Shown one piece after another: positions 131-19,171 of a stretch of DNA of 39,441 nucleotides. The position numbers were made by a program, and so were the translations under genes. Source of the stretch: Opitutaceae bacterium (GTDB lineage: Bacteria; Verrucomicrobiota; Verrucomicrobiia; Opitutales; Opitutaceae). Under the pieces are notes generated by a model, which was given only the letters and a program-made list of their open reading frames with translations, searched no databases and was not told where the DNA came from. Within the stretch, counting starts at the first letter, position 1, and each line of letters begins with the position of its first letter. The stretch spans positions 1-39,441 of the forward strand of contig JAISGL010000077.1 in NCBI GenBank assembly GCA_031263125.1. Reading direction: 5' to 3'.

Positions 131-256
131 CTGATGTTACGCGGACGGCAGATTTCGTAGGGCCTGACCTTGTGTCAGGCCGCAAATTACCAGCGCGGCA
201 TCCCACGCATGCGCGGCCTGACACAAGGTCAGGCCCTACGCACCGCGTCACATCAG
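131..256. mobile_element. TIR-bounded REP pair (BIME-like unit), copy 1
   Basis: Terminal inverted repeats CTGATGTTACGCG (131-143) and CGCGTCACATCAG (244-256) differ at one position. Inside are two family a REP hairpins facing each other, at 157-183 and 213-239: GTAG foot, stem GGCCTGAC/GTCAGGCC, loop CTTGT. The flanks TTAGTAT (124-130) and TTAAATC (257-263) are at best a poor direct repeat, so this may be an old copy. Open frames through it are repeat translations, not genes. Confidence 0.7.
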
Positions 257-609
257 TTAAATCACTTAAATCGATCCAACTCGACCCAAGCCGGGTGGCG
301 CAAACGCCGCGCGAATGCCTTTCCTGGGAGCGCGGGCATCCCTGCCCGCGCGCCGCCCTGCAAACCGGCTCACTTTGGAGGCGAATTGGAAATAACCGCA
401 AAAATCATCCCTTTGGACGATTTACGCCGGGGGCGGTTTTTTGATATTTTCACAATGTGATCCGATGAGCTTCCGCTCTTATGCGAAACCATCACACAAC
501 CTCCACCTCCCAGCCTCCACCTCCCAACCTCGCCTCCCAACCGCCTCCCAACCTCGCCTCCCAGCCTCACCTCCCAACCGCCACCCTCACTTCTCCTCCA
601 ATCCCACCT
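257..609. other. Non-coding leader upstream of the first autotransporter
   Basis: No gene is supported here. A perfect 9-bp palindrome lies at 330-351 (GCGCGGGCA, loop TCCC, TGCCCGCGC); it has neither a GTAG foot nor a T-run. At 506-577 there are six copies of CCTCCCAR with starts spaced 14, 13, 11, 13 and 13 nt apart. The strand complementary to this C-rich tract has repeated GGGAGG runs that could form a G-quadruplex. An ATG at 481 is in frame with the downstream gene, but it would put 43 Pro/Ser/Gln-rich residues before a normal signal peptide. No promoter could be assigned with confidence. Confidence 0.5.
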
Positions 610-3600
610 ATGACAACACTACGCCTGCCTTTGTCCAAGACCGCCCGTCTGACTGCCCTGTTACTGTTCTGCTGCTGCACCCTGCCCGTGGCCCATGCCT
701 TCGAGTGGGTCATTTCACCCACGGGTTCGACCGCGCTGCCCGTCGGAGGCAACACAACCGCAGGCTCCAATTTGATAAAAGACGGTGACATCATCACCCT
801 GTACACGGACCCGACCAGCGGCGGACCGACAGGCCCCGCCGCCCTCGGCAATGCGCTGATCACCTACCAGGACAACGGCGCCCTCACCCCATTCCCCCCG
901 AGCTTCACGATACGCTCGGGCGCCGGCCCCGACGATCCCGATTGGGACGGCACTTGGTACACCATCACCCATAAAAAATCACCGGCGCCGACTAACTTGA
1001 CCAGGGCCATTTCCACCTTCTCCGGCAATTCCACCATTACCCTCGTCAACGTCATTTTTGCCGAAAACATCACGGCAAACGGCTCCGGCGCGGCGATCTT
1101 TTTCGCGGCGGGCAACGCGCAACTCACCGACATGACGACCCTCACCGGCACGGCGATTTTCAGGGGCAACGGCGGCAGCAACAGCGCCATGCTTGGCGGC
1201 GCCATCCACAACGCCGCGGGCCATTTCACGCTTTCCGGCTCGTTCATCTTCGACAGCAACTTCTCCGGGCGCGGTGGCGCGATCAACACCGCCGCCAACG
1301 CCGGCAACGATTACATCCGGGGCGACATCCTGTTTGTATCGAACACCACGCAAACCCTCGGAGGCGCGTTCAACTTCACACAGTATCTGGCGACCTCCAC
1401 GGCTTTTTTTGACGGCAATATCCGGTTCATCGGCAACATGGCCAACAACGGCGGCGCCTTTGCCTCCAACATCGACGCAAACGCCAGCGCGTCCGCCGCG
1501 TGGGTGGTTTTTTCGGGCACGACCCTGTTCAAGGACAATGAGGCCACGGCAAACGGCGGCGCCATCCAGCAAGGCGCCCAGGGTCTGGTCATCGGTGGCA
1601 ACACCACCTTTGACGGCAACAAGGCCGGCGGCCTCGGCGGGGCCATCTACCAGTTCAACAACAAAAGCGGCGTGCAGGTTGCGGGCGGCGCCTTCGTCAC
1701 CCTCGACGCCACGACCGGCGACATTCTTTTCCAAAACAATCTCCATAACACGGCCATGTCCCCCGACGAACACAACGCCATGGTGCTCTATTCCGGAAAC
1801 GCCTATGTGGACGGCGGCACGACGACCGTCACGCTCAATGCCACCGGCGGCAACGTCATCTATTTCCACGACCCCATCGCCGTCTCCGACACGAACGACT
1901 ACGGCGCGCAGCAAGCCTACGTCAACGTCACGCAGACCGGCGACGGCACCGTTTTGTTTGACACCTACCAAAGCGTCATCACCCACACGACCACCCTTCA
2001 ATCGGGCACTTTCCTCCTCACCAACCGCGCCGTCTACGGCGCCTCCAACGACAAAGGCTGGTTCCAAATCGAGGACGGCGCCACGGTTGCCGGAAACGGC
2101 ACGGTGCAGGCCGGTGTCATCGGCTTCGCCGACGGCGCGCGCGTCAACGTGACCGCCGGCGGCACCCTCTCGCTCCTCGCGACCACATTCACCGGCACGG
2201 GTCTGCGCATTTCAGGCCACGGCACGATTGACGGCGCCGGCGGGCCGCCCATCCCCGCCTCGCTGGTAAGCGTCGGCTCCACCGTCTCGGAAATCCCCGG
2301 CGCGTCCGTCGGCGCCAACACCGCGCAAACACTCACCTTCGCCGCCTCGGCGCCCCTCGCGCTCGAAACCGGCGGCACCCTCGCCTTCGACATGTTTGGC
2401 GGCACAACGTCCGATCATCTTTATGCCGACGCGCTCACTTTCACCTCCGGCTCCGCCTTCATCAACCTCACCGGCATGTCGGGCACCTACAACATTCTCA
2501 CCACGCTCAGCTCCACCTTTGCCCCGGGCGATTTCACCATCCTCATCAACGGCTACATCCCCACCCAGCGTTATGCCGCCACCCCCACGATCACACCCTT
2601 CGACGTCGCGGGCAGCGAACTCAGCGTCGAATACGCGACAAAAAACATCAACATCGCCTGGACGGGCGCCGCGCAGGGCGGCATCTGGAGAAACGTGCAA
2701 ACCAGCGACTCCAACTGGACGGACAACGACGCCATCGCCCCCGAGCTGTTCTTCCTGGACGGCGACGGCGTCCTCTTCGACGACACCGCGGCATCCAGGG
2801 ATGTCTCCATCGATGCCGCCGGCGTGGTGGCGACATCGATGACCGTGGCCATCACCACCGGCAACAACTACACCTTTGCGGGATCGGGCGGCATCCGCAT
2901 CAGCAGCACCTTTGCCTTTGCCGGCACGGACGTGACACCCACCGGCAAACTCACCAAAAGCGGCGACGGCGCGCTCAACTTCACCAACACCGGCACGAAC
3001 ACCTTTGAGGACGGCATCGGGATTTCCGGCGGCGCCATCGGCTTCACCCGCGCCGCCCAGCTCGGCGACGGCGGCAACGGCATCCACTTCACCGGTGACG
3101 CCACGCTCCGCGCCAACGCCGCCGGCATCACCCTCGCAAACACCCTCGACGTCGACGCCGGAAAAACCGCCACGCTCGACACCGCCGCAAACACGCTCAC
3201 CTATGCCGGCATCTTCAATCTCAACAACACCGGCACTCTCGCCAAGACAGGCGCCGGCACACTCCGCCTCACCGCCGACAACTCCGCCAGCACCGGCGGG
3301 ACAGTCGTCAGGCAAGGCACGCTCACGCTCGACGGCGCCGATGCCAAAATCGGCGGCAACATCGACATCGCCGCCGGCGCGACCCTCGCGGGCAGCGGCT
3401 CGGCGACTGGCACGGTCAACGCCGGCCCCGGCGCATTCATCGCGCCCGGCGCCTCCAGCCTCACGACGCCCGTCACGCTCAACCTCAACAACCTCAACCT
3501 CGATTCCTCCATCCTGAGCTTCAACCTCTTCTCCACCGGCTCCAACGACACCATCAACCTCGCCGGCGCCCTCACGCTGGCCGGTACCAACAAAATCAAC

Positions 3601-6600
3601 ATCAGCCTGTTCCAGGCCGGCGTCTACAACCTCGGCAACCTCGACGCGCTCGCCGGCGTGGAAGTCACCATTGCGGGCATCGCCCAGGTCGCCGGCGCCC
3701 GCCAGACTGCCGCCGTCGTTGCCGATGGCGGCAACCTCCTGCTCCAAACCGGCGCGGACATATCGCGCGTCCTTCGCTGGACAGGCGCGACCAGCGGCAC
3801 ATGGATTTCATCCGACTCCAACTGGACCGACGGCGGCCCGACCACGCTTTACGCCGGAGGCGACCGCGTCATTTTTGACGACACCGCCCCCGCCGCCTCC
3901 CCGCACGACATCGACATCGCCGGCACCGGCCTGATGGTTTCCGACATGTTTGTGCAAGGCACATCCAGTTACTCTTTCTCCGGCGCCGGCATCACCGCCG
4001 ATCCCGCCAGCATCATATCGGGAGCAGTCATCACCACCGGCTCCGGCAGACTTATAAAGGAAGGCAGCGGCACGCTCGCCTTCACCAACGCCGCCAACAA
4101 TTTCCTCGGCGGCATCGAAATCGACGGCGGCGCGATTACCTTCACGGACGTCGCCCAGCTCGGCGGCGGCGACATCCTCTTCGGCGGCGACGCCGCGCTC
4201 GTCTCGCTCACCGGCGCGCAAACGCTCGCCAGCAACATCACGGTCGCCGCGGGCAAGACCGGCGTCATCGACGCCGGCGCAGGCGATATCGCGCTCTCCG
4301 GTTTGCTCGCCGCCGCCGGCGGATCGGGCACGCTCGCCAAACTCGGATCGGGCATGCTCGCGCTCGCAGCGGACAACACCGCCGGCGCGGAAAATCTCGT
4401 GCTCAATATCGCCGAAGGTTCCCTCCTGCTTGACAACGTCACATTCGCCGGCGCGGTTGACCTTGGCGAAAACACGACGTTCATCGGCGCCGGCGACGCC
4501 GGCACAGTCGGCGCGATGCGCGCGGCCGCCGGTTCCACGGTGCAGGTCAACGCCGGCGAATTGAATATCGGCAGTCTCCAGCTCGCCGGCGGTTCCACGC
4601 TCATCCGATCAGACACCGGGGCAGGCGTGCTTTCCAGCGCGGCCACGCTCGACGGTCTCGTTTCCGCCAGCATCACCGGCGGCACACTCGCGTTCAACGG
4701 CTCTATCAACGGCGCGGGCGGCTTCCTCAAGACCGGCGACGGCGAATTGCAGCTCTCCGGCGCCGCCGCGCTCGGCAACACCGGCGTCACGCAAATCGAC
4801 CAGGGCGCCGTGCGCATCACCGGCATATCCGGCGTCACCGCCCCCACCATTACCGAAAGTGACACCATTCCCGGCATCAACATCGCCGGCACCGTTTCGC
4901 AAAATATCATGCTCAACGGCGGCGACCTCATCTTGTCTTCCGGCACGGGTGCTGACGAGGCCACCGCCAACAACTGGTCCGGCCTGCGCCTCATCCAGGG
5001 CGCCGACTCCGCCGCGAGCACGATATCCGGCGGCAACGAAATCATCCACGTGGGCAGCGGCACGCAGGAGTACGCCATTCTCCAAGGCATCCACGTCGCC
5101 GTGAACGCCGGCAACGACACCGCCGTCCTGGGCAACACCGCCAACAATTTCACCGGCATCGTCCGCGTCGACAGCGGCACGCTCCAGGTCACCGACACCC
5201 TGCAACTCGGCGCGTTCGGCGCCGCGACCACCGCCAAGGTCGCCCTCAACGGCGGCGCGCTCCAGATCAGCGGCACCATCAACACCACCCGCGCCATCGA
5301 GCTTCGCGCCGACGCCACCGTGACGGTTGACGACGACGCAAACTCCCAGTGGAGCGCCATCACCAAACCCGCGGCCTACCCCGCGGCCAGCTTCACCAAG
5401 GCCGGCTCCGGCACGCTCACCATCGCCGGCAACAATCAGGCCACCGGCATGACCGTCGCCGAAGGCCGCTATGTCGCGTTTACGGGCAACAGCGTGAACA
5501 CGAGCGCCACGGTCAGCGTCAGCAGCGGCGCGACATTCGAGTTCAGCGCCACCACCACCGCGAACGGCGGCACGATGGGCTACGTCGGAGGCCAGCTCTT
5601 CGCGAACTCCAGCGCAGGCACGGTGAGCGCCCCCGTTGTTGGCAGCGGCACGTTGGAAATCACCAGGGGCAGACTCGTCTTCACCTCGCCCAACACGACC
5701 ATTGCAAACATCAACATCACGGGCACGGACTCAGCCGTGGTTATCAACAACAACCGCCCCGTGGCCGACTTCTCCCCCAACGGCGCGATCACCGTTGACC
5801 AAGGCGCCCTGATTCTCGCCTCGACCGGCCACAACATCGGCAACGTCGTGCTCAAGGACGGCGCCTCGCTCTCCTTCCTGATGCAGGGCACGCTGGTGGC
5901 GGCGCAGGTGACGGAGACCGGCACCATCCCCGCCTACTTCACGACCAACGGCCAGGGCTTCAAGACCGCCACGCTCGCCTCGCTCACCGCCACGGGCACC
6001 GACGGCAACCTCAACTTCAACACCAACCTCGCCTTGGGCCGCGCCGATCATCTCACGGTCAGCGCCCCGGTTTCGGGCGACTTTGTCATCGGCGTCAACA
6101 ACCACGGCGTCCTCCCCGAAACATATGCCGCGCCCCTCACGCTCCTCACCGCGCCTGACGCCAGCGACGCCACCTTCCACACGCCTCCCGACATTGATGT
6201 CGGCCTCTATAAATATGCCGTCACCACGCAAACCGGCGACGGCAAAATCGGCATTGTTGTCACCGGCACCGGAGCCATGAGCAACTCCGCCTCGCTCATC
6301 AACACCATGGCGGGCGCGCTCCCCCTCAGCTGGTTCGCCGAACTCAACAGCGTCACGCAGCGCATGGGCGAGCTGCACATGGAAACCCGCATCGACGAAG
6401 CCGGTCTCGCCACGTGGGTGCGCGGTTATGGACAGGCGTTGGAGTTCAACCGCAAAGTCAACGGCACGCCGTTCGACGAACGCCAGTTCGCCGTCGAGGG
6501 CGGCGCCGACTACAAATTCGGAGGCACGCCGCACAACATCTACGCCGGCGTTTTCTTCGGCTACGGCGAAAGCGAGCGCGACTATAACGTCGCCGGCGAG

Positions 6601-7218
6601 GGCCGCAACGAAAGCGTCTTTGGCGGCCTCTACGAAACCGTCAGCACAAAAAACGGCTGGTACCTCGACGGCGTGATCAAGCTCAACGGCTTCAAGAACA
6701 CGTTCACCGCCGTCTCCCCGACGGGCGAAACCATGACGGGCGAATACCACAACTGGGCGGCCGGCGGCTCGCTCGAATTTGGCAAATACTGCGACGTCGG
6801 CTTCGGCTGGTATCTCGAACCGCAAATCCAGGGCGCGATCACCGCCATCATGGATTCGCATTACGTGACCAGCAGCGGCATGCAGGTCGAGCTTCGCTCC
6901 GGCACCACCACGCAAGGCCGCGTCGGTTTTATGTTCGGACGCATCTTCCAAACCGGCGCCAACGGTCTCCTCCACGTTTATATCAAAGGCCACGCCGTGG
7001 CGCAGTGGACAACCAACGGCCAGATTTACGTCGTCACCCCGCACGGCGAGCACAAGCGTTACACGCCCACAATCAAGGGCGACCGCCTCGAAGTCGGCGC
7101 GGGCATCGCATGGCGCGCCTCCCGGCGCATGCAATATTTCTTCGATTTTGAAACCGCCGACGCCGATTATTATATAAAACCCTGGGGCGTGAATTTCGGC
7201 ATCCGTTGCAGTTGGTAA
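610..7218 (+). CDS. Giant autotransporter/adhesin with Pmp-like repeats and C-terminal beta-barrel
   Basis: Predicted surface protein of 2202 residues (type V secretion). Start chosen at ATG 610 because it opens directly on a Sec signal peptide (MTTLRLPLSKTARLTALLLF, ending near VAHA). Residues about 180-345 contain repeated GGA[IF] and FxxN motifs (GGAIHN, FDSN, GGAINT, FIGN, GGAF, FKDN, GGAIQQ, FDGN, GGAIYQ), the pattern of chlamydial polymorphic membrane proteins. The middle is a long passenger of autotransporter-associated beta-strand repeats (KxGxGTLxL types) with two W-x-G...SNW modules at about residues 680 and 1055. Residues about 1900-2202 form the barrel, beginning near WFAELNSVTQRMGELHM and ending in Trp rather than the usual Phe. 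It heads a co-directional cluster with TBDRs, sulfatase and galM. A role as substrate or cell adhesin is inferred; the ligand is unknown. Confidence 0.85.
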   Translation: MTTLRLPLSKTARLTALLLFCCCTLPVAHAFEWVISPTGSTALPVGGNTTAGSNLIKDGDIITLYTDPTSGGPTGPAALGNALITYQDNGALTPFPPSFTIRSGAGPDDPDWDGTWYTITHKKSPAPTNLTRAISTFSGNSTITLVNVIFAENITANGSGAAIFFAAGNAQLTDMTTLTGTAIFRGNGGSNSAMLGGAIHNAAGHFTLSGSFIFDSNFSGRGGAINTAANAGNDYIRGDILFVSNTTQTLGGAFNFTQYLATSTAFFDGNIRFIGNMANNGGAFASNIDANASASAAWVVFSGTTLFKDNEATANGGAIQQGAQGLVIGGNTTFDGNKAGGLGGAIYQFNNKSGVQVAGGAFVTLDATTGDILFQNNLHNTAMSPDEHNAMVLYSGNAYVDGGTTTVTLNATGGNVIYFHDPIAVSDTNDYGAQQAYVNVTQTGDGTVLFDTYQSVITHTTTLQSGTFLLTNRAVYGASNDKGWFQIEDGATVAGNGTVQAGVIGFADGARVNVTAGGTLSLLATTFTGTGLRISGHGTIDGAGGPPIPASLVSVGSTVSEIPGASVGANTAQTLTFAASAPLALETGGTLAFDMFGGTTSDHLYADALTFTSGSAFINLTGMSGTYNILTTLSSTFAPGDFTILINGYIPTQRYAATPTITPFDVAGSELSVEYATKNINIAWTGAAQGGIWRNVQTSDSNWTDNDAIAPELFFLDGDGVLFDDTAASRDVSIDAAGVVATSMTVAITTGNNYTFAGSGGIRISSTFAFAGTDVTPTGKLTKSGDGALNFTNTGTNTFEDGIGISGGAIGFTRAAQLGDGGNGIHFTGDATLRANAAGITLANTLDVDAGKTATLDTAANTLTYAGIFNLNNTGTLAKTGAGTLRLTADNSASTGGTVVRQGTLTLDGADAKIGGNIDIAAGATLAGSGSATGTVNAGPGAFIAPGASSLTTPVTLNLNNLNLDSSILSFNLFSTGSNDTINLAGALTLAGTNKINISLFQAGVYNLGNLDALAGVEVTIAGIAQVAGARQTAAVVADGGNLLLQTGADISRVLRWTGATSGTWISSDSNWTDGGPTTLYAGGDRVIFDDTAPAASPHDIDIAGTGLMVSDMFVQGTSSYSFSGAGITADPASIISGAVITTGSGRLIKEGSGTLAFTNAANNFLGGIEIDGGAITFTDVAQLGGGDILFGGDAALVSLTGAQTLASNITVAAGKTGVIDAGAGDIALSGLLAAAGGSGTLAKLGSGMLALAADNTAGAENLVLNIAEGSLLLDNVTFAGAVDLGENTTFIGAGDAGTVGAMRAAAGSTVQVNAGELNIGSLQLAGGSTLIRSDTGAGVLSSAATLDGLVSASITGGTLAFNGSINGAGGFLKTGDGELQLSGAAALGNTGVTQIDQGAVRITGISGVTAPTITESDTIPGINIAGTVSQNIMLNGGDLILSSGTGADEATANNWSGLRLIQGADSAASTISGGNEIIHVGSGTQEYAILQGIHVAVNAGNDTAVLGNTANNFTGIVRVDSGTLQVTDTLQLGAFGAATTAKVALNGGALQISGTINTTRAIELRADATVTVDDDANSQWSAITKPAAYPAASFTKAGSGTLTIAGNNQATGMTVAEGRYVAFTGNSVNTSATVSVSSGATFEFSATTTANGGTMGYVGGQLFANSSAGTVSAPVVGSGTLEITRGRLVFTSPNTTIANINITGTDSAVVINNNRPVADFSPNGAITVDQGALILASTGHNIGNVVLKDGASLSFLMQGTLVAAQVTETGTIPAYFTTNGQGFKTATLASLTATGTDGNLNFNTNLALGRADHLTVSAPVSGDFVIGVNNHGVLPETYAAPLTLLTAPDASDATFHTPPDIDVGLYKYAVTTQTGDGKIGIVVTGTGAMSNSASLINTMAGALPLSWFAELNSVTQRMGELHMETRIDEAGLATWVRGYGQALEFNRKVNGTPFDERQFAVEGGADYKFGGTPHNIYAGVFFGYGESERDYNVAGEGRNESVFGGLYETVSTKNGWYLDGVIKLNGFKNTFTAVSPTGETMTGEYHNWAAGGSLEFGKYCDVGFGWYLEPQIQGAITAIMDSHYVTSSGMQVELRSGTTTQGRVGFMFGRIFQTGANGLLHVYIKGHAVAQWTTNGQIYVVTPHGEHKRYTPTIKGDRLEVGAGIAWRASRRMQYFFDFETADADYYIKPWGVNFGIRCSW

Positions 7219-7336: not shown

Positions 7337-7471
7337 GTAGGGCCTGACCTTGTGTCAGGCCGCAAATTACCTGTGAGCCTCTTGCGCGAGCGCGGCCTGA
7401 CACAAGGTCAGGCCCTACGGCGGCACGCATGGCGGCGGGGGCACGTAGGGCGCGACCTTGTGTCGCGCCGC
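7337..7471. repeat. REP cluster, copy 2, overlapping the start of the first TonB receptor
   Basis: Three hairpins: family a at 7337-7363 (+), family a inverted at 7392-7418, and family b at 7445-7471 (+), the last with GTAG, stem GGCGCGAC/GTCGCGCC and loop CTTGT. A degenerate left terminus (GCGTAACTGACGC) lies near 7320-7333. No right terminus is visible: the unit runs straight into the coding sequence. The preferred GTG start at 7460 lies at the loop/stem junction of the family b hairpin. Confidence 0.75.
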
Positions 7472-10400
7472 GCATGGCTCCTGTTGACCGGCATGATCAT
7501 AAGCGGCGTCCTTGGCGCACAGGCCGTCGCTCCCGTTTCATTGGAGGAAACCGGTGATTCATCCCCGCCGGTGAAGGTGGAAACGTCAGCCCGGTCAGCT
7601 CCCGCGAAACCCGCCGAAAAAGTGGACGACGAAATCGTCGAACTCTCCCCATTCGTTGTGCAGGCGGGTGATGACGACGGCTACCAGGCCGCCAACACCA
7701 CCAGCGGCAGCCGCCTGAACACCTCCCTCAAGGACACCCCCGCGTCCATCTCGCCCTTCACCGAGGAGTTTCTCAGCGACGTCGGCGCGACCTCCGTCGA
7801 GGACATGCTCGCCTACACGGGAAACTCTGAAGGCGAATTTGAGGACGGCTCCGGCTTCAACGACTCGGCCTCCCGCTGGGCCAACACCACCAGCGGCCGC
7901 TTCCGCATACGCGGCATGAGCGGAAGCTCCTCGCGCGATTTCGTCAACAGCTCCATCCCCAACGACACCTACAACATTGATCGCGCCGAGGTGGCCAGCG
8001 GCCCCAATTCCATCCTCTTCGGCCTGGGGTCGCAGGGCGGCACCGTCCTCCTCTCATCAAAACGCGCCAACACGAGACGAAACACCTTTCGCGTCAAAAA
8101 CATCATGGGCACCTGGGACGGCTTCAGCACCTTGCCCTACGAACGCCTCGAAGCCGACGCAAACCTCGTGCTCATTCCCAGGAAACTCGCGTTCCGCCTG
8201 ATGGCGCTTTATCAAAACTCGGGCAGTTGGATGCGCTATTGGGTCAACGATCAAAAACGCATCTCCCCGGCGCTGACCATAAAACCCTCCAAAAACACCA
8301 CCATCCATCTCAACTACGAGCGCGGTGTTGTCGACGGCAGCACGCGTTTGAACTGGCCCGCCTACGATTCCGTCTCCGGCTGGCTCGCCGCAGGCCGCCC
8401 CCTCGTCAGCAGCCTGACCGCGCCCGTGCTCGGCGCCGCCCCCGCCGGCATGGTCCTGCTCGCTCCGGATAACAACAACGTTGACCACTACGTCTTTAAC
8501 GAAAACGACGGCACCGTTAATAATTACCGCCAGGCCTATGCGGGCGCCAGCCTTCATCCGGACTCAAATAATACAGTCCTCGCATCGCCCTCGCTCCTGT
8601 CCTACCGCGTCAGCACGCTCGGGCCGGGATCGCAGCGCAACCAGACCTTTGAAAGCTGGTCCGCCATCGTCGATCAGCGCGTCGGCGCCTTTGACTTCGA
8701 ACTCGGTTATTATCATAATCACAACGACTCGCAGGTTCTCACGGCCAGCGGCGCCGACGGACGCAGCAGCGGCCTCACCGCCGATCCCAATGTTTATATA
8801 TCAATGCCGGTCTGGAGTTCGCCATCCGATAAAGTCCCCAATCCCCGCGCCGGCCAGCTCTACATGGAGGAACAATGGTACAAAAACACCTTTGATGATA
8901 CAAACAACGTCATCCGCCTCACCATATCCAGTGATATCCAACCCGGCAAAGCGTGGGGACGCCACCGCCTGATGGGCCTTGTCGAACACGCGAAGAACGA
9001 AAGCGTCTTTATACAAAAAAATGAAATCTGGGCCGACGACAATAATGTTGTCATCAACTATAATCCCAACAGCCCCACGCCCGAAGGCAACCAGAACAGC
9101 GTCTGGCGCCGCCGCTACATCACCGAGGGCGATTTCAACACGTATTACGCGGGCGACGGACGCATCCCGACCCCTACCTTCGTCGCGGGCGACAAAACCT
9201 ACCACGGCACTTTTGTCACCCGCAAAAACGCCAGCTATCACACCACGCAGGAGACCAGCTCCTACGCGCTGGCCATCCAAAGTTACTGGTTCAAAAACAG
9301 GCTGATCACCACCCTCGGCGCGCGCATCGACAACCTCAAATTCACCAACGAAAAACAAGCCCGCATCCTCGATCCGAACGACCCGCGAATACTCAGCGGC
9401 GACAAAGTGCTCGGCGAAATGGCATTTTCCGGCGAATATAAAAAAGACAAGTACAAACCCTCCACCTATGCGGCCGGCGCGGTTTGGCACCTCTCGAAAC
9501 ATTTTTCCCTGTTCGGCAATTACAGCACCAACATCGGCCCTCCGCGCTTTGACCGCAACGTGCTGCCCTATGGCGACATCGCGCAGGCCCCCAAGGGCAA
9601 AACGACGGAGGAGGGCATCCTCGTTGACTTCCTCGGCAACGACAAAATCTTCCTCCGCATCACCCGCTTCGACACCCGCCAGCTGGGCGACAACCCCATC
9701 ATCCCGGGCAGCACTGATGCCATAAACTCCGCCCCGCTCGGCAACACGGATGTCATAACCATAAGCACCGCCCTGCATGACGCCGGCCTCATCACCGACG
9801 AACAATATCAATGGGAAGCCGTCGATTTTTCGTTCAATTCAGCCTGCCTGAACACCTATACAAAAGGCTGGGAATTCAGCCTCATCGCCAATCCCACAAA
9901 AAGAATAACATTCTCCGCGGCGGCCTCCTATAGCGATCGCAACCGCTACGACGTATTCTCGGAAGGCTTTGCCTACTTCGGTCAAAAGTTCCCGGAATGG
10001 TTTGCCCTTGCCAATGCGATGCCGGAAAGCGAACAAAAACAAACACTCCTCGACCTCCTCAATGATGAGAAGGTCATTGTTGATGGAAAACTCCAGAGTA
10101 TCGTTAATAATAACAGCGGCCAGATGGGGTCGCGCATGTGGAAAGTCGTTATAAACACCCGCTACAGGTTTCCGGACAACTTCCTGAAAGGCTTCGCCAT
10201 CGGTGGCGCCATGCGTTATCAAAGCGGCCCCGTCATCGCTTGGAACAACACAACGAAGCAAAAGACCATCGGCCAGCAAACGCTCTTCTTCGATGCCTTC
10301 ATAACCTACAGGCGCAAGATTCTGCGCGGAAAGTCCGGCATGACCATTCAGCTCAACATCAGGAATCTGACCAACAGCGACACCGTGACCATGGGCCGGC

Positions 10401-13911: not shown

Positions 13912-15348
13912 ATGAAGTTTCCATTCCTCCTCACCGGCGCCGCCGCCTGCCTGCCCGTTGCGACTCTCCACGCCGCCACCGCTCCCGCCACCGCCAGTCC
14001 AAACAATACAAAGCCCCCCAACCTCGTCCTCATCATCGCCGACGATTGCACCCGGCATGACACCGAACTCTACGGCGGGCAGGCCAGGACGCCCAACATG
14101 ATGCGCCTCGCCCGCGAGGGCATGACCTTCTCGAAATGTTATCAAGCCGCCCCCGTTTGCTCTCCCACGCGGCACGCCCTCATGACGGCCAAATATCCCG
14201 TGAAAACCGGCGCGTATCCAAACCACACCTTTGTCAAAAAAGGCATCACCAGTTGGGCGAAATGGTTTCAGGATGCCGGCTGGCGCGCGGGTCTTTCCGG
14301 GAAAAAACATGTCAATCCGGTCAGTACTTTCTGCTTCGAACACGTCATGCCCAAAAACATCGCCAGGGACGACCAGAAAGAGCGCAATCCCGACTTCGGC
14401 GCCGTGGATGTTTTTCTCCGCGATTGCGTGAAAAAAAACGAATCCTTCGGCCTCTTCATTTGTTCCACCGAACCGCATTCGCCGTGGAACAAAGGCGACG
14501 CGTCAAAATATCCCCCCGCCCGGCTCAAGCTGCCCCCGATTTTTGTGGATACGCCCAAAACCCGCGACGCCTATTCGCGATACCTCGCCGAAATCACCTA
14601 CTTCGACGCGCAGGTCGGCGAAATGCTCGCGCTCCTCGACAAACACAAACTCGCCGGCAACACATTGGTCATCGTCCTCACCGAGCAAGGGAACGGCTTC
14701 CCTTTCGCGAAATGGACTTGTTACGATGCCGGCGTTGGCAGCGGCTGCGTCATCCGCTGGCCCGGCCATGTCAAACCCGGAAGCGCCACCGACGCGCTTG
14801 TTGAATATGTCGACATGATTCCGACATTCTGCGATGCCGCCGGTATCAAGACGCCGGACGACCTCGACGGGCGCTCGTTCCTGCCGCTGCTCGAAGGCAA
14901 AACGGACAAACACAAGGATTATGTCTTTTCGATACAAACATCGCGCGGCATCTTTGCCGGTCCCGACTATTATGGCATCCGCACGGTGCGCGACGAACGT
15001 TATCGTTATATACTCAACCTCACGCCCAAGGCGACTTTCAAAAACACAGCGATAAAAACCCCTTGGTACAAGGAATGGACAGCCGCCGCGCGCGCGGGCG
15101 ACGCACATGCCGGGCAGCTCACAAAACGCTACCAGCACCGCCCCGCCGAGGAACTCTACGATTGTGAAAAAGACCCCTGGAACACGCACAACCTCATTGA
15201 CGATCCCGCGCTCAAGGAGCGGACGGCAAACCTGCGCAAGCAACTCGCCGCATGGATGAAAGACCAGGGCGACAAAGGCCAGGCCACCGAAATGGCGGCA
15301 ACGCGGCATCTCTGGAAAAATGCCGGCGGCAACGGCGGCGAAGATTGA
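13912..15348 (+). CDS. Secreted type I sulfatase (formylglycine-dependent)
   Basis: Predicted periplasmic sulfuric-ester hydrolase, 478 residues, with a Sec signal peptide (MKFPFLLTGAAACLPVATLH, ending near HAA). The alkaline-phosphatase-fold N-terminus has the metal-binding IIADDC pair at D44-D45. The sulfatase signature CSPTR begins at C83, the cysteine (or serine) that is converted to formylglycine in this family. A second metal-site segment reads TEQGNGFPFAKW (E258, Q259, K267), where most sulfatases have DN or DH. The C-terminal RYQHRPAEELYDCEKDPWN is the usual sulfatase tail. It lies 65 nt after the second TBDR, supporting desulfation of imported sugars. Its substrate cannot be read from sequence; the heparan N-sulfatase-like branch is possible. 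No maturase is in the window. Confidence 0.88.
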   Translation: MKFPFLLTGAAACLPVATLHAATAPATASPNNTKPPNLVLIIADDCTRHDTELYGGQARTPNMMRLAREGMTFSKCYQAAPVCSPTRHALMTAKYPVKTGAYPNHTFVKKGITSWAKWFQDAGWRAGLSGKKHVNPVSTFCFEHVMPKNIARDDQKERNPDFGAVDVFLRDCVKKNESFGLFICSTEPHSPWNKGDASKYPPARLKLPPIFVDTPKTRDAYSRYLAEITYFDAQVGEMLALLDKHKLAGNTLVIVLTEQGNGFPFAKWTCYDAGVGSGCVIRWPGHVKPGSATDALVEYVDMIPTFCDAAGIKTPDDLDGRSFLPLLEGKTDKHKDYVFSIQTSRGIFAGPDYYGIRTVRDERYRYILNLTPKATFKNTAIKTPWYKEWTAAARAGDAHAGQLTKRYQHRPAEELYDCEKDPWNTHNLIDDPALKERTANLRKQLAAWMKDQGDKGQATEMAATRHLWKNAGGNGGED

Positions 15349-15357
15349 TATTATTAT

Positions 15358-15640
15358 CTGATGTTACGCGAAAGCCAGTTTTTTGTAGGGCCTGACCTTG
15401 TGTCAGGCCGCGCACGCATGGGAGGCCACGCAGGTAATTCGCGGCCTGACACAAGGTCAGGCCCTACGGCACGCATGGCGGCAGGGGCACGTAGGGCGCG
15501 ACCTTGTGTCGCGCCGCGTATGGCGGCGGGGGCGCGATTGGCGGAAACGTCACGCATGGCGGCAGGCGCTGCGCCAAGGGACGCCTGTGGACGTTCGCGG
15601 CCTGACACAAGGTCAGGCCCTACGCGCCACGTAACATCAG
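15358..15640. mobile_element. TIR-bounded multi-REP unit, copy 3, with 7-bp flanking repeats
   Basis: Termini CTGATGTTACGCG (15358-15370) and CGTAACATCAG (15630-15640). Hairpins: family a at 15385-15411, family a inverted at 15441-15467, family b at 15491-15517, family a inverted at 15597-15623. The unit is flanked by perfect direct repeats TTATTAT at 15351-15357 and 15641-15647, which look like a target-site duplication. It begins 9 nt after the sulfatase stop codon. The frames open through it are not genes. Confidence 0.75.
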
Positions 15641-15655
15641 TTATTATGATGACAA

Positions 15656-16016
15656 CTGATATTACACGGCAGCCAGCTTTAGGTAGGGCGGTCTCGCCGA
15701 GACCGCCGAAGCAAGCCGGAGTCTCGCCGAAGCAAGCCGGAGGCTTGCCAGAAATTAGCCGGTGGTTAAGCGAGGCTTTGCGAGCGACACCACCGGATAT
15801 CATCACAAACAATAACCGCATCCCGGAGGGCTGCCAGAAATCCATGTCACACGCCTCTGGCATCCCTCCGGGATGCGGTGCTTTTTATGTTGGGTTCCGG
15901 TGGTGTCGGTCGCGTTGCGACCTCAACCACCGGCTTATATCTGGCAAGCCTCCGGCTTGCTCCGGCGGTCTCGGCGAGACCGCCCTGCCAAAAAAACCTC
16001 TTCCGCATAACATCAG
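15656..16016. mobile_element. TIR-bounded unit, copy 4, with a different REP family and long nested palindrome
   Basis: Termini CTGATATTACACGG (15656-15669) and CCGCATAACATCAG (16003-16016) match the ends of the other units. The cargo differs: family e hairpins (GTAG, GGCGGTCT/AGACCGCC) at 15683-15707 and, inverted with a GCAG foot, at 15964-15988. Inside these lies a long imperfect inverted repeat (about 15729-15796 against 15897-15963), with a third hairpin nested inside that. Flanks ATGACAA (15649-15655) and ATGATAA (16017-16023) agree at 6 of 7 positions. The unit ends 14 nt before the next start codon. Confidence 0.7.
15816..15878. repeat. Inner hairpin of copy 4
   Basis: The arms at 15816-15838 and 15856-15878 pair almost perfectly (core CCGCATCCCGGAGGG / CCCTCCGGGATGCGG). 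On the + strand TGCTTTTT follows, so it could act as an intrinsic terminator, between the sulfatase and the downstream genes. This is only a possibility, because the sequence looks like repeat cargo. Confidence 0.5.
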
Positions 16017-16030
16017 ATGATAAAACAAAG

Positions 16031-17140
16031 ATGATAAAACAATATTCACACAAAAGCGCCTGTGCAACCGGTCCGCGGCCCGCCCGGAAACTTTGCCGCC
16101 TTGCCGTATATTATGCGGCGCTGTCCTTCTTTGCCATTGCGCTTCCGCTCTGCGCGCAAGACGCCAAAAACAAATCCGGCGGCGCTGGCAATGCCAGGGA
16201 ACTCAAGGCGGCCCAAAAACCCAAGTCCGACACATGGGCCTTCTCGTTTCTCCCCGCCGGACTCCAGCGCAACCCGCAAGTCGATTTTACCATAATCACT
16301 GAAATGACCGCGGACGGCAAAAAACTGTCACCGCCGTCGTTTGAAAACCCGGTGTATTATATTTCGCATTCAGTCGGCCAGCACGACGTGGGCGACAGTT
16401 ACGGCGGGACAAAACCGATCCATTACAAATATCTGGAGGATCAGCTCAACCGCGCCCTTGCCTCCAATGGCTACCGCCTTGCCGGCGCGGAACACCCGGC
16501 CACCCAGGTGCTCTTCATAGCCTGGGGCATGCATAACAGGGTCGTGGCAGCCGAGGACATGGACGACGGCGGCGGCGAGGGCGAGGGCGAAGGTTCCGAT
16601 GATGCCGGTGACGAGCGTCACTATGTTGTGGATTCGGAAGACATACAAAACCTCCTCTCGCGCGCAAAAGTCGTGGGCGGGCAGAAATTCGCGGACGAAT
16701 TTGCCGGCGCGCTTTCCGATCAGCTTGATTGGACCACCAATCTCCGCGCCAAGGGTCCGCTCAGCCGCTTCGCCGAGCGCGATGACCTCACTGAAACGCT
16801 CGTGGAGCAAATTTTCGATGATTGTTATTATCTCCTCGTCACGTCTTTCGAGGTGGAGGCTCTCAAGCGCAACGAGAAAAAAATCCTCTGGACGACAAAA
16901 ATATCAACGACCGCGCGCGGCATTTCCTTCGAGGCGACGATTCCCAACATGATTGAAAACGGCGCCTATTATTTTGGCCGCGAAATGACCGTGCCCGACA
17001 TCGTCAGAAAACGCGCCAGCAAAAAAGGCACGGTTGAAATCGGCGAGGCAACGGTGCAGGAATATTACATGCCCGGCACGGCGATTCCCTCCGGCACGAC
17101 TTCACCCTCGACCAGCGGCTCCTCAGCCGGCAAACCTTGA
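16031..17140 (+). CDS. Exported protein of unknown function
   Basis: Predicted 369-residue exported protein; I do not recognise the family. Start chosen at ATG 16031 because it gives a basic n-region (MIKQYSHKSACATGPRPARK) and a hydrophobic core ending near LPLCAQ. The longer frame upstream runs through the mobile element. A Cys in the LPLCAQ context could suggest a lipoprotein, but the Pro makes a lipobox unlikely. Residues about 174-195 form a Gly/Glu/Asp-rich acidic stretch. The rest resembles a soluble mixed alpha/beta domain, and the C-terminus is Ser/Thr/Pro-rich. It is 23 nt upstream of galM and probably co-transcribed with it. A periplasmic role is inferred. Confidence 0.75.
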   Translation: MIKQYSHKSACATGPRPARKLCRLAVYYAALSFFAIALPLCAQDAKNKSGGAGNARELKAAQKPKSDTWAFSFLPAGLQRNPQVDFTIITEMTADGKKLSPPSFENPVYYISHSVGQHDVGDSYGGTKPIHYKYLEDQLNRALASNGYRLAGAEHPATQVLFIAWGMHNRVVAAEDMDDGGGEGEGEGSDDAGDERHYVVDSEDIQNLLSRAKVVGGQKFADEFAGALSDQLDWTTNLRAKGPLSRFAERDDLTETLVEQIFDDCYYLLVTSFEVEALKRNEKKILWTTKISTTARGISFEATIPNMIENGAYYFGREMTVPDIVRKRASKKGTVEIGEATVQEYYMPGTAIPSGTTSPSTSGSSAGKP

Positions 17141-17163
17141 TAATCCATTGATAAACACATCCC

Positions 17164-18312
17164 ATGAAACATAAATATCGCAACGCCTTCACCGGCGCGC
17201 TCCTCAGCATCACCACCGCGGCCTCACTCGCCGCGGCGCAACCGGTCATTACCATGACATCATTCGGCACACTGCCCGACGGGCGCTCCGCCCAGCTCTA
17301 CACACTCGCCAACTCCCAGGGCGCGAAAGTGTCCATCACCAACTACGGCGGCATCGTCACGCACATCATTGTGCCCGACCGCGAGGGCCGCATGGCCGAC
17401 GTCGCGCTTGGTTACGATATGGTTGAAAAATACGTTGCCGGCTCGCCCTATTTCGGGGCGCTCATCGGACGTTACGGCAATCGCATCGCCGGCGGAAAAT
17501 TCACCCTCGATGGCAAAACCTACACACTCCCCACCAACGATGTTCCGGGCGGTGTCCCCTGTTCGCTCCACGGCGGCAAGACCGGCTTCGACAAAGTCCT
17601 CTGGGACGCCACCCCGCTCCTCGCCAGTGATGCCGCCGGCCTCAAACTCCGCCACCTCAGCAAGGACGGCGAGGAAGGCTACCCCGGCAATCTCGACGTG
17701 ACTGTCACGTATTGGTTTAACAACAAAAACGAACTGCGCATCGAATACAGCGCGACCACCGACAAAGCCACCCCGGTCAACCTCACCAACCACTCCTATT
17801 TCAACCTCGCCGGCGAAGGCGCCGGCACGATTCTTGATCACATCCTTACGCTCAATGCCTCCAATTACACACCGGTTGACAAGGGCCTGATCCCCACCGG
17901 AAAAGTCACTCCCGTGTCAGGCACCCCGTTCGACTTTACCACGCCGCATGCCATCGGGGAGCGCGTGAATACTGTCGATGAGCAACTCAAGTTTGGCGGC
18001 GGTTACGACCACAACTTTGTGCTCGATCGCACAGGCAAGGGACTCGTCAAGGCCGCCGAGGTTTACGAACCCGTATCGGGCCGCGTGATGGAAATCCTCA
18101 CTGAGGAACCCGCGATTCAATTTTATTGTGGCAACTTTCTCGACGGCACGAATGTCGGCAAAAGCAACTGCCCCTACACGTATCGCACCGGCATCGCCCT
18201 GGAGACGCAGCACTCGCCCGACTCGCCAAACCAACCGGCGTTCCCAAGCACAATCCTCCGCCCCGGCCAGCGCTACGAAACCGCAACCCTATATCGCTTC
18301 TCCGCCCGCTAG
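17164..18312 (+). CDS. galM: Aldose 1-epimerase (galactose mutarotase), exported
   Basis: Interconverts alpha and beta anomers of galactose and related aldoses. 382 residues, with a signal peptide (MKHKYRNAFTGALLSITTAA, ending near AAAQ), so a periplasmic form. Family landmarks are visible: ITNYGG, GRYGNRIAGG (R107), SLHGGKTGFDK with H136, NLTNHSYFNLAG with H210 (the likely catalytic acid), the sugar-binding Asp in GGYDHNFV (D282), and the catalytic base Glu in GIALETQHSPDSPNQP (E347). Full length for an exported GalM. Last gene of cluster A, and functionally matched to the alpha-galactosidase at the far end of the window. No clear Shine-Dalgarno before the ATG. Confidence 0.93.
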   Translation: MKHKYRNAFTGALLSITTAASLAAAQPVITMTSFGTLPDGRSAQLYTLANSQGAKVSITNYGGIVTHIIVPDREGRMADVALGYDMVEKYVAGSPYFGALIGRYGNRIAGGKFTLDGKTYTLPTNDVPGGVPCSLHGGKTGFDKVLWDATPLLASDAAGLKLRHLSKDGEEGYPGNLDVTVTYWFNNKNELRIEYSATTDKATPVNLTNHSYFNLAGEGAGTILDHILTLNASNYTPVDKGLIPTGKVTPVSGTPFDFTTPHAIGERVNTVDEQLKFGGGYDHNFVLDRTGKGLVKAAEVYEPVSGRVMEILTEEPAIQFYCGNFLDGTNVGKSNCPYTYRTGIALETQHSPDSPNQPAFPSTILRPGQRYETATLYRFSAR

Positions 18313-18355
18313 AACAGAGAGCACAGCGCGGCGAAGCCGCAACCAAAGGAACAGG

Positions 18356-18594
18356 CCCAAGCCAACAATCCAATTGCCACAAAAAACACAAAAAAAGCCT
18401 CTTCGCATATGACGTCTCCCGTGCGCTTATAAGCGCCGCGAACCGGTTTCCGGCAAAATATGATTTTGCAGGAAAGGAGACCGCAGCACCTATAGGCGCT
18501 CTGTTGATTACCGAAAGCACACAACGCCTTTTTGTCAGGCCACTCGCCAAACCTCGTAGAGTGTTTTTTGTGGCAATTGGTTTGTTGTTTTGGG
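18356..18594. repeat. Long inverted repeat in the convergent spacer, left unit
   Basis: Arms of about 34 nt at 18356-18389 and 18561-18594 are near-perfect reverse complements, sharing CCAATTGCCACAAAAAACAC. The 171 nt between them hold no gene but contain several small palindromes (listed separately). It may be a remnant or non-autonomous element, or a bidirectional transcription stop between the converging clusters. Confidence 0.6.
18423..18469. other. Run of three small palindromes, possible structured RNA
   Basis: GCGCTTATAAGCGC (18423-18436, a perfect 14-bp palindrome), CCGG-TTT-CCGG (18443-18453) and GCAAAA-TATGA-TTTTGC (18453-18469) follow one another with almost no spacer. This could be structured RNA or protein-binding sites; no known family is recognised. 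Confidence 0.3.
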
Positions 18595-18870
18595 TGAGTC
18601 GCGTCATAGGGAAATCATACGCAAAAAAATCAATGCTCAAGGTTAGTAGCACGGATTATCACGGATAAGAAAAAGACTGGTCGAGTGCCTGGTTTTATCC
18701 GTGTAAATCCGTGTAATCCGTGGTTAATTTATTGGTTTGGTTTTTAAACTGTTTTTCAAAGTGCCCTAAAGACGTTTTTCCTTAATTAAAATAACCATAT
18801 TATTATTACTTTATTTCTAAACTTAAAAATTGATTTTTTTGCGTATGCTTTCCCTATGAGCCAACCCAAT
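18591..18870. repeat. Inverted-repeat bounded element, right unit
   Basis: Arms at about 18591-18637 and 18829-18870 are reverse complements with few mismatches; each contains the TCATAGGGAAA and GCAAAAAAATCAA motifs or their complements. The interior is AT-richer than the surroundings and contains the CACGGATTA palindrome. No coding sequence is supported. It looks like a short non-autonomous element or a scar of one. Confidence 0.5.
18650..18724. repeat. CACGGAT-type inverted repeat
   Basis: The left arm (about 18650-18669, GCACGGATTATCACGGATAA) pairs with the right arm (about 18695-18724), which carries three spaced ATCCG units: ATCCGTGT, ATCCGTGT and ATCCGTGG. The right arm has one extra unit, so pairing is imperfect. 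It lies between the two convergent clusters. Confidence 0.5.
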
Positions 18871-18880
18871 CCAAGCCAAC

Positions 18881-18950
18881 TCACCACGGAGAACACCGGA
18901 GACACGGAGTCAAAAGCATTTCTCCGTGTTCTCCGTACCCTCCGTGGTGA
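18881..18950. repeat. CCACGGAG-type inverted repeat
   Basis: Arms 18881-18909 and 18922-18950 (29 nt each, starting TCACCACGGAG and ending CTCCGTGGTGA) are near-perfect reverse complements around a 12-nt loop. I know this type of CACGGAG repeat from spacers of several phyla. It has no coding content. Confidence 0.6.
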
Positions 18951-18958
18951 ATTAATAA

Positions 18959-19090
18959 CTGATGTTACGCAGCGCGGCTCCGTAGGGCCTGACCTTGTGT
19001 CAGGCCGCGAATTACCAGTGTGGCTTCTCACGCATTCGCGGCCTGACACAAGGTCAGGCCCTGCAAAATCCGCTGGTCGCGTAACATCAC
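18959..19090. mobile_element. TIR-bounded REP pair, copy 5, with 7-bp flanking repeats
   Basis: Termini CTGATGTTACGC (18959-18970) and GCGTAACATCAC (19079-19090). Family a hairpins at 18982-19008 and, inverted, at 19038-19064; the second has a GCAG instead of a GTAG foot. Perfect flanking direct repeats TTAATAA at 18952-18958 and 19091-19097 look like a target-site duplication. The unit sits directly beside the CCACGGAG palindrome. The frame open through it is repeat-derived. Confidence 0.75.
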
Positions 19091-19171
19091 TTAATAATCA
19101 TTCCATCTTTGGTTGCGGCTTCACCGCGCCGGAATAGTTGACGTAATCTGGAATTGAGCGGCATGAATTTA

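Follow-up and report, generated by a model that had tools for sequence, protein, structure and literature searches.

What are short repeat units that keep the same ends and exchange what lies between them, and what moves them? The question is raised by a contig of an Opitutaceae bacterium (JAISGL010000077.1, assembly GCA_031263125.1), in which four units share terminal inverted repeats (TIRs) and carry different repetitive extragenic palindromic (REP) sequences as cargo. We refer to the whole contig, 39,441 nt, as the window, and to its genome as G000. We conclude with high confidence that the units are miniature inverted-repeat transposable elements (MITEs) defined only by their ends, most likely moved in trans by an IS701-family transposase, and that their cargo consists mostly of host palindromes. 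The ends, the target-site duplications (TSDs), unfilled sites, the exchange of cargo between genomes, autonomous insertion sequences (ISs) with identical ends, and one composite element are established here.

Ends and duplications in the window and its genome

The four units lie, to the base, where a preliminary description of the window had placed them. The features in question are as follows.

131 to 256: MITE unit 1, 126 bp, TIRs at 131-142 and 245-256, inverted pair of REP family A inside
157 to 183, forward strand: REP family A hairpin GTAGGGCCTGACCTTGTGTCAGGCCGC, cargo of unit 1, inverted partner at about 213-239
7337 to 7480: free REPs of families A and B without these TIRs, comparison copies
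13912 to 15348: sulfatase open reading frame (ORF), PF00884
15351 to 15357: left target duplication of unit 2, TTATTAT, a perfect copy of the right one
15358 to 15640: MITE unit 2, 283 bp, cargo of REP families A and B
15641 to 15647: right target duplication of unit 2, TTATTAT
15649 to 15655: left flank of unit 3, ATGACAA, 6 of 7 positions identical to the right flank
15656 to 16016: MITE unit 3, 361 bp, diverged TIRs, inverted pair of REP family C (GGTAGGGCGGTCTCGCCGAGACCGCC) enclosing other palindromes
15683 to 15708, forward strand: REP family C hairpin, cargo of unit 3, inverted partner at about 15963-15993
16017 to 16023: right flank of unit 3, ATGATAA
18952 to 18958: left target duplication of unit 4, TTAATAA, a perfect copy of the right one
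18959 to 19090: MITE unit 4, 132 bp, cargo an inverted pair of REP family A
19091 to 19097: right target duplication of unit 4, TTAATAA

The preliminary description had the four units sharing one terminal repeat. The end pair CTGATGTTACGC/GCGTAACATCAG is indeed common to all of them (the end of the elements is also written CTGATGTTACGCA), but the copies are not all identical, with zero to two mismatches per end. Units 1, 2, and 4 begin with exact CTGATGTTACGC and have right ends with one mismatch (CTGATGTGACGC, CTGATGTTACGT, and GTGATGTTACGC, respectively), and in unit 3 the left end departs at two positions and the right end at one. The base that follows CTGATGTTACGC is mostly A or G. At up to two mismatches, the window holds 10 matches to the end, where 2.5 were expected and the maximum in 100 shuffles was 8.

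The flanks of units 2, 3, and 4 agree with the earlier account of two perfect 7-bp duplications and one that matches at six of seven positions, and unit 1 (flanks TTAGTAT and TTAAATC) is without a clean TSD. The left duplication of unit 2 starts 2 bp past the stop codon of the sulfatase gene. Unit 1 folds as a single long hairpin (z of -12), and unit 3 has many homologous copies in the genome. Other genes of the window code for TonB-dependent receptors, a GH36 alpha-galactosidase-type protein, the sulfatase, an aldose 1-epimerase, and a very large autotransporter (481-7218; 2,245 amino acids, with PATR and pertactin domains).

G000 is a metagenome bin of 3.92 Mb in 489 contigs, estimated to be 66% complete. 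A search with the end pair, as the preliminary description had proposed, found about 1,100 ends in it: 550 forward and 556 reverse at no more than one mismatch, compared with 1 and 5 for the reversed pattern. Three sister species of the genus have 8 to 13 ends, not above their own controls, and no match to the element was found in the viral contig set searched. Units were paired in a sample of 61 contigs (537 kb), which yielded 67 units of 49 to 426 bp, with a mode of 126 bp and 30 units of 125 to 127 bp. They are short and noncoding, bounded by TIRs, and present in many copies, as is characteristic of MITEs. In the modal layout, a TIR is followed by a spacer, the REP hairpin GTAGGGCCTGACCTTGTGTCAGGCCGC, a middle segment, the inverted REP, and the second TIR, and the whole folds into one long hairpin (z of -12 to -13); short forms of 71 to 88 bp often have a single hairpin. 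The cargo hairpins are palindromes with a GTAG tag at one end, often in inverted pairs, and so qualify as GTAG REPs.

Tabulation of the flanking 7-mers, also proposed earlier, gave a consistent result over many copies, contrary to the doubt that such repeats might prove inconsistent. Among the 66 units with both flanks available, exact flanking repeats of 7 bp were found for 20, of 8 bp for 6, and of 9, 10, and 14 bp for one each. An exact TSD of 7 to 10 bp is therefore present in 28 of 66, and shuffled flanks gave about 0.9 repeats of at least 7 bp. The target is symmetrical, T-T-A-N-T-A-A.

Empty sites had been suggested as a further check, and paralogous ones were found in three cases, the third being the composite described below. 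At locus L038 (7631-7917), an element has inserted centrally into another family A element, giving the duplication TTGGTAA, and the unfilled junction is spanned by 54 paralogue matches, the best at 96% over 80 bp. Unit 4 of the window has inserted at the margin of a different dispersed repeat, of which an unfilled paralogue is present in L067. A dispersed inverted repeat, CACCACGGAGAACACCGGAGACACGGAG...CTCCGTGTTCTCCGTACCCTCCGTGGTG, adjoins unit 4 at 18860-18958 and is also found in L067. The comparison was made between paralogues within G000; intergenic DNA of sister species does not align with it. A TSD together with unfilled sites is again what a MITE is expected to have.

Constant ends and changing cargo in other genomes

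Among 200 genomes of the family, the exact end is enriched in six (715 copies in G000, 626 in G078, 91 in G100, 41 in G054, 34 in G007, and 19 in G048), and the rest have zero to two each. The enriched genomes show 7-bp duplications such as TTATCAT, TTTGTAA, TTACCAG, and TTATTAA, and their hairpins vary by genome under constant ends, for example GTGGCGCGGGCGTCTCGCCCGC in G007 and GTACCGCAGACTTCCAAGTCTGC in G078.

When named genomes were scanned for paired ends spaced 109 to 139 bp apart, at least 99 stretches came up. The matches come from Thiotrichales, Methylococcaceae, Parabeggiatoa, a deltaproteobacterium, Chloroflexi, and a cyanobacterium, and also from Chitinophagaceae, Hymenobacter, Saprospiraceae, Cyclobacteriaceae, Elusimicrobia, Latescibacterota, Calditrichaceae, and Opitutaceae bins. 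Of 99 distinct units, 41 have an exact 7-bp TSD and 17 an 8-bp TSD, compared with 1.2 and 0.25 for shuffled flanks, and the TTA-N-TAA target also holds for these units, other phyla included. The cargo depends on the host: REPs of the CGTCATTGCGAGG type in Cyclobacteriaceae, the related CATTGCGAG in Elusimicrobia, and GTAGGGCGGCCTTCAGGCCGCC in Methylococcaceae. Some of the unrelated cargos within the same ends lack GTAG. The earlier statement that the cargo differs while the ends stay the same is thus upheld across genera of Opitutaceae and at least 10 other bacterial groups. In a gammaproteobacterial bin (L200, 728-1019), three left ends 80 bp apart precede one common right end, an arrangement that resembles tandem growth of a unit.

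These data bear on two other explanations. The first is chance resemblance or an artefact of assembling repeats, to which the state of G000 lends something, since it is a fragmented bin whose contigs frequently end at these repeats. However, the control gave 6 matches against 1,106, and the same structure is present in Hymenobacter and in G007 and G048, which are near-complete, single-chromosome genomes. The controls exclude this explanation, and we assign it a negligible probability.

The second is that the units are REPs or bacterial interspersed mosaic elements (BIMEs) moved by a REP-associated tyrosine transposase (RAYT; a Y1, HUH enzyme), with TIR-like ends that merely extend a REP. The GTAG tags of the cargo fit this idea, as do 42 Y1_Tnp matches in G000, most of them RAYT-like. 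Against it, duplications of 7 to 8 bp occur throughout, and to our knowledge enzymes of the IS200/IS605 type make none. BIMEs, and REP doublets of the REPIN kind, would lack a TSD and be bounded by REP hairpins, which is not what we observe. Moreover, the cargos enclosed by these ends in many groups are unrelated and in part lack GTAG, and a DDE transposase gene is enclosed by them too (see below). For the ends, this explanation is already refuted, as is the concern in the preliminary description that they might always be an extension of one REP family; as an account of the units in general, we regard it as highly improbable.

RAYT genes usually number one or a few per genome. G000 has about 40 copies of a long (about 340 amino acids) RAYT-like Y1 transposase gene (for example, L092, L093, L095, L098, and L100). 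Some of them, with long inverted repeats on either side (L093, AGGGACTCGGCCATAAATAAATT...), resemble the TIR-associated tyrosine transposases described previously (PMC3733652). Downstream of RAYT-like genes, a TIR element occupies a constant position behind the hairpin CTGGCAACTTACGCCAG (L043 at 9673, L093 at 622, and L119 at 1468); therefore, the MITE and the RAYT-like gene seem to have been copied together.

Autonomous insertion sequences with the same ends

The preliminary description had suggested looking for a full-length IS with the same ends. We sought it as end pairs 1 kb apart in named genomes and found it in Hymenobacter and in a Latescibacterota bin. The Hymenobacter siberiensis IS is 1,083 bp long, has both ends and an 8-bp duplication (TTACGTAG), and codes for a 343-amino acid transposase, which matches DDE_5 in Pfam and transpos_IS701_2 in NCBIfam (287.6 bits; cut-off 250). 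A second copy in this genome is 1,136 bp long, is frameshifted, and has the duplication TTATATA. The Latescibacterota IS (L312; 1,107 bp) has both ends exactly, and its transposase scores 340.7 bits against the same cut-off.

Within Opitutaceae, G078 holds such an IS in two pieces, each including its TIR: the 5' half (L299) and the 3' half (L314), on contigs that overlap by 119 bp. The joined halves read as one 357-amino acid frame. G100 has the 3' end of an IS701_2-type IS with its TIR. In G000, decayed transposase fragments are 64%, 74%, and 89% identical to the G078 protein; among them, one has four stops and one lies beside a MITE insertion. A weak match to the transposase N terminus is located at the edge of a contig, close to a TIR. 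All the autonomous copies that we found between such ends belong to IS701_2. Of the two options raised earlier, that of REPs moved by a DDE transposase is an apt description of how they are carried.

Transposases with CTGATG-TTACGC ends mostly share 37% to 60% identity and are 25% to 31% identical to a sister branch recognized by the same NCBIfam model. ISs of that branch have TAGGAC-TTACGCA ends (TAGGACTTACGCA) and apparent 5-bp duplications, so that the inner half of the end is common to both and the outer half differs, as expected if the enzyme reads the end. The sister group was seen at L298 and L313 (Hymenobacter) and L297 (Latescibacterota); two of its copies, identical and 1,065 bp long, have the 5-bp flanks CTATC and GACTT.

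In the genomes compared, the ISs and the MITEs have nothing in common beyond their 12- to 13-bp ends, and for this reason the interior is free to change. We propose that an IS701-family transposase (transpos_IS701_2) would cut and insert the units in trans, with a 7- to 8-bp duplication at TTA-N-TAA-like sites.

Several observations weigh against this proposal. About 55% of the 66 sampled units in G000 have no exact TSD, by decay or recombination. No intact transposase was seen in G000, as far as this 66% complete bin allows, and no clear transposase of this type was seen in the high-copy genomes G204, G209, and G210. The evidence for TIRs, TSDs, and ISs is drawn partly from metagenome bins. 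Finally, IS701 proper duplicates 4 bp (PMC2266710), whereas 8 and 7 bp were observed in Hymenobacter. Because of these 7- to 8-bp duplications, the partner can at most be called a subgroup within the NCBIfam family of that name and not IS701 sensu stricto.

The fact that no intact gene was seen leaves room for another DDE transposase compatible with the ends, for example an IS4- or ISPepr1-like enzyme, as the cause of the bloom in G000. IS4-family subgroups with CT ends and 7- to 9-bp duplications exist, and ISPepr1 has ends starting with YT, duplicates 7 to 8 bp, and prefers AT-rich targets (PMC2266710). However, none of the PF01609 transposase loci inspected in G000 has these ends as its own termini, and no IS4-type copy with them was among these loci. 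Given also the IS701_2 identity of all autonomous copies found and of the G000 fragments, we think a different enzyme improbable. Long TIR pairs with a TSD were not found in G000, nor near the singletons in G007 and G048. Multicopy ORFs in 649 kb comprised only RAYT-like genes and one group each of what we take, from our own reading of the sequences, to be IS4-like, ISAs1-like, and IS1182-like genes (the RAYT-like label is likewise ours). A 1,836-bp TIR pair on contig C11 of G078 is IS-like by distance and was ruled out, since its flanks do not match.

Source of the cargo and comparison with known systems

Are the REPs part of the element or passengers? Of the family A hairpins in 336 kb of G000 taken without selection, 52 lie within TIR pairs, 13 lie beside a lone TIR, and 11 are free. 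Families H and I in the same DNA are mostly free (11 of 17 and 13 of 19). In the Cyclobacteriaceae genome G205, 5 of 22 CGTC pairs adjoin a TIR (chance, 0.07% per pair) and 17 are free, and in the Elusimicrobia genome G209 there are 423 half-sites versus 45 ends. REP family C is present in the sister species G001, whose TIR counts are at background only. Given the free REPs in these three genomes and family C in G001, the ends do not represent an extended REP, and the REPs are more than decayed MITEs.

The opposite view would make the units ordinary MITEs with an interior that is a relic of the IS, and free REPs decayed copies that lost their ends, as has been proposed for QMITE2, whose short copies are interpreted as truncated MITEs (PMC5896051). 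The distribution of family A, mostly in or beside TIRs, speaks for this view. It is at odds with MITE interiors that resemble the IS nowhere beyond the ends, with the predominance of free copies among CGTC pairs and families H and I, and with family C in a species without TIR enrichment. We consider it unlikely, if less so than the alternatives above.

We favor a MITE interior filled mostly, in each host, by the host's own dispersed palindromes, which are GTAG- and CGTC-type REPs, usually as an inverted pair and independent of the ends. A composite shows one route by which cargo is gained. At L041 (7425-7795), two MITEs and the 119 bp between them form a 371-bp unit flanked by the 8-bp repeat TTACGTAA, and neither MITE has a duplication of its own. 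The 119 bp are a copy of another dispersed repeat. The outer flanks joined with one TTACGTAA have ungapped matches at L125 (72 of 77), L087 (94% over 72), and L082 (91% over 65). Because this single-copy junction has unfilled counterparts, the outer ends of the composite were used and the intervening DNA was carried along. More generally, cargo might be gained whenever the outer ends of two neighboring elements are used jointly, so that the DNA between them moves too, and this route may be a general one. A second candidate, L201, takes up 187 bp with a 138-bp unit inside; its flank is rich in TTAAGTT, and it was not counted. A dispersed repeat of about 110 bp with the hairpin TTCCGAACGGTTGC...GCAACCGTTCGGAA (L041, 7551-7669; L049, 6679-6788; L052, 3653-3752; L079) often adjoins TIR elements.

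As a rule, a MITE is specific to its host and looks like a shrunken version of a single IS. The 12- to 13-bp end pair described here occurs in at least 10 bacterial groups (Opitutaceae, Methylococcaceae, Thiotrichales, Chloroflexi, Bacteroidota, Elusimicrobia, Latescibacterota, Calditrichaceae, Cyanobacteria, and Deltaproteobacteria), around interiors that consist mostly of REPs of the local host. A MITE with exchangeable REP cargo under fixed ends offers one route for the spread of REPs, and the elements are a ready family for asking how little transposon end a transposase needs. The hairpins may also bring some benefit. It is a speculative idea, to which we give little weight, that IS701_2-type ends are a general vehicle spreading REP palindromes across bacteria, including CGTC REPs, which lack their own transposase, and that REP cargo is favored because the hairpin joins the short ends or, by terminating transcription, protects the host.

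Mobile insertion cassettes (MICs; IS231-type) and Pack-MITEs are transposon ends with unrelated, exchangeable cargo, and they carry genes; the units described here instead carry short host palindromes within ends of about 12 bp. GTAG and CGTC REPs, RAYTs, and TIR-flanked tyrosine transposases have been described (PMC3733652), and REPs as such lack both TIR and TSD, their movement being attributed to RAYTs (PMC3733652, PMC3116915). The cargo hairpins are likewise of the GTAG or CGTC type in inverted pairs, as in REPs, BIMEs, and REPINs, and the whole unit differs from these by its TIRs and TSD. CGTC REPs were reported without a dedicated transposase, and their movement was left open (PMC3733652); a DDE transposase carrying them within its ends is one concrete, testable route. 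With regard to the IS701 family, the autonomous partners score above the cut-off of transpos_IS701_2 and have exactly the ends of the MITEs, and they depart from IS701 proper in the length of the duplication, as noted above.

A 2024 review of MITEs in prokaryotes is silent on IS701 and on the capture of cargo (PMC10969869), and the end sequence is not described in the open-access literature searched (one unrelated match), a search that did not extend to ISfinder and closed-access papers. The closest precedent, compared by description, is QMITE2 of Coxiella burnetii, a MITE of 150 to 190 bp with TIRs, direct repeats of 7 to 11 bp, and a GTAG REP inside, of which small versions look like bare REPs and the REPs are taken to be truncated MITEs (PMC5896051). 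QMITE2 is described for one species and one REP, with no autonomous partner named, whereas the cargo of the elements in G000 and elsewhere is exchangeable and their REPs are independent. The elements are a MITE variant not previously described, with exchangeable REP cargo.

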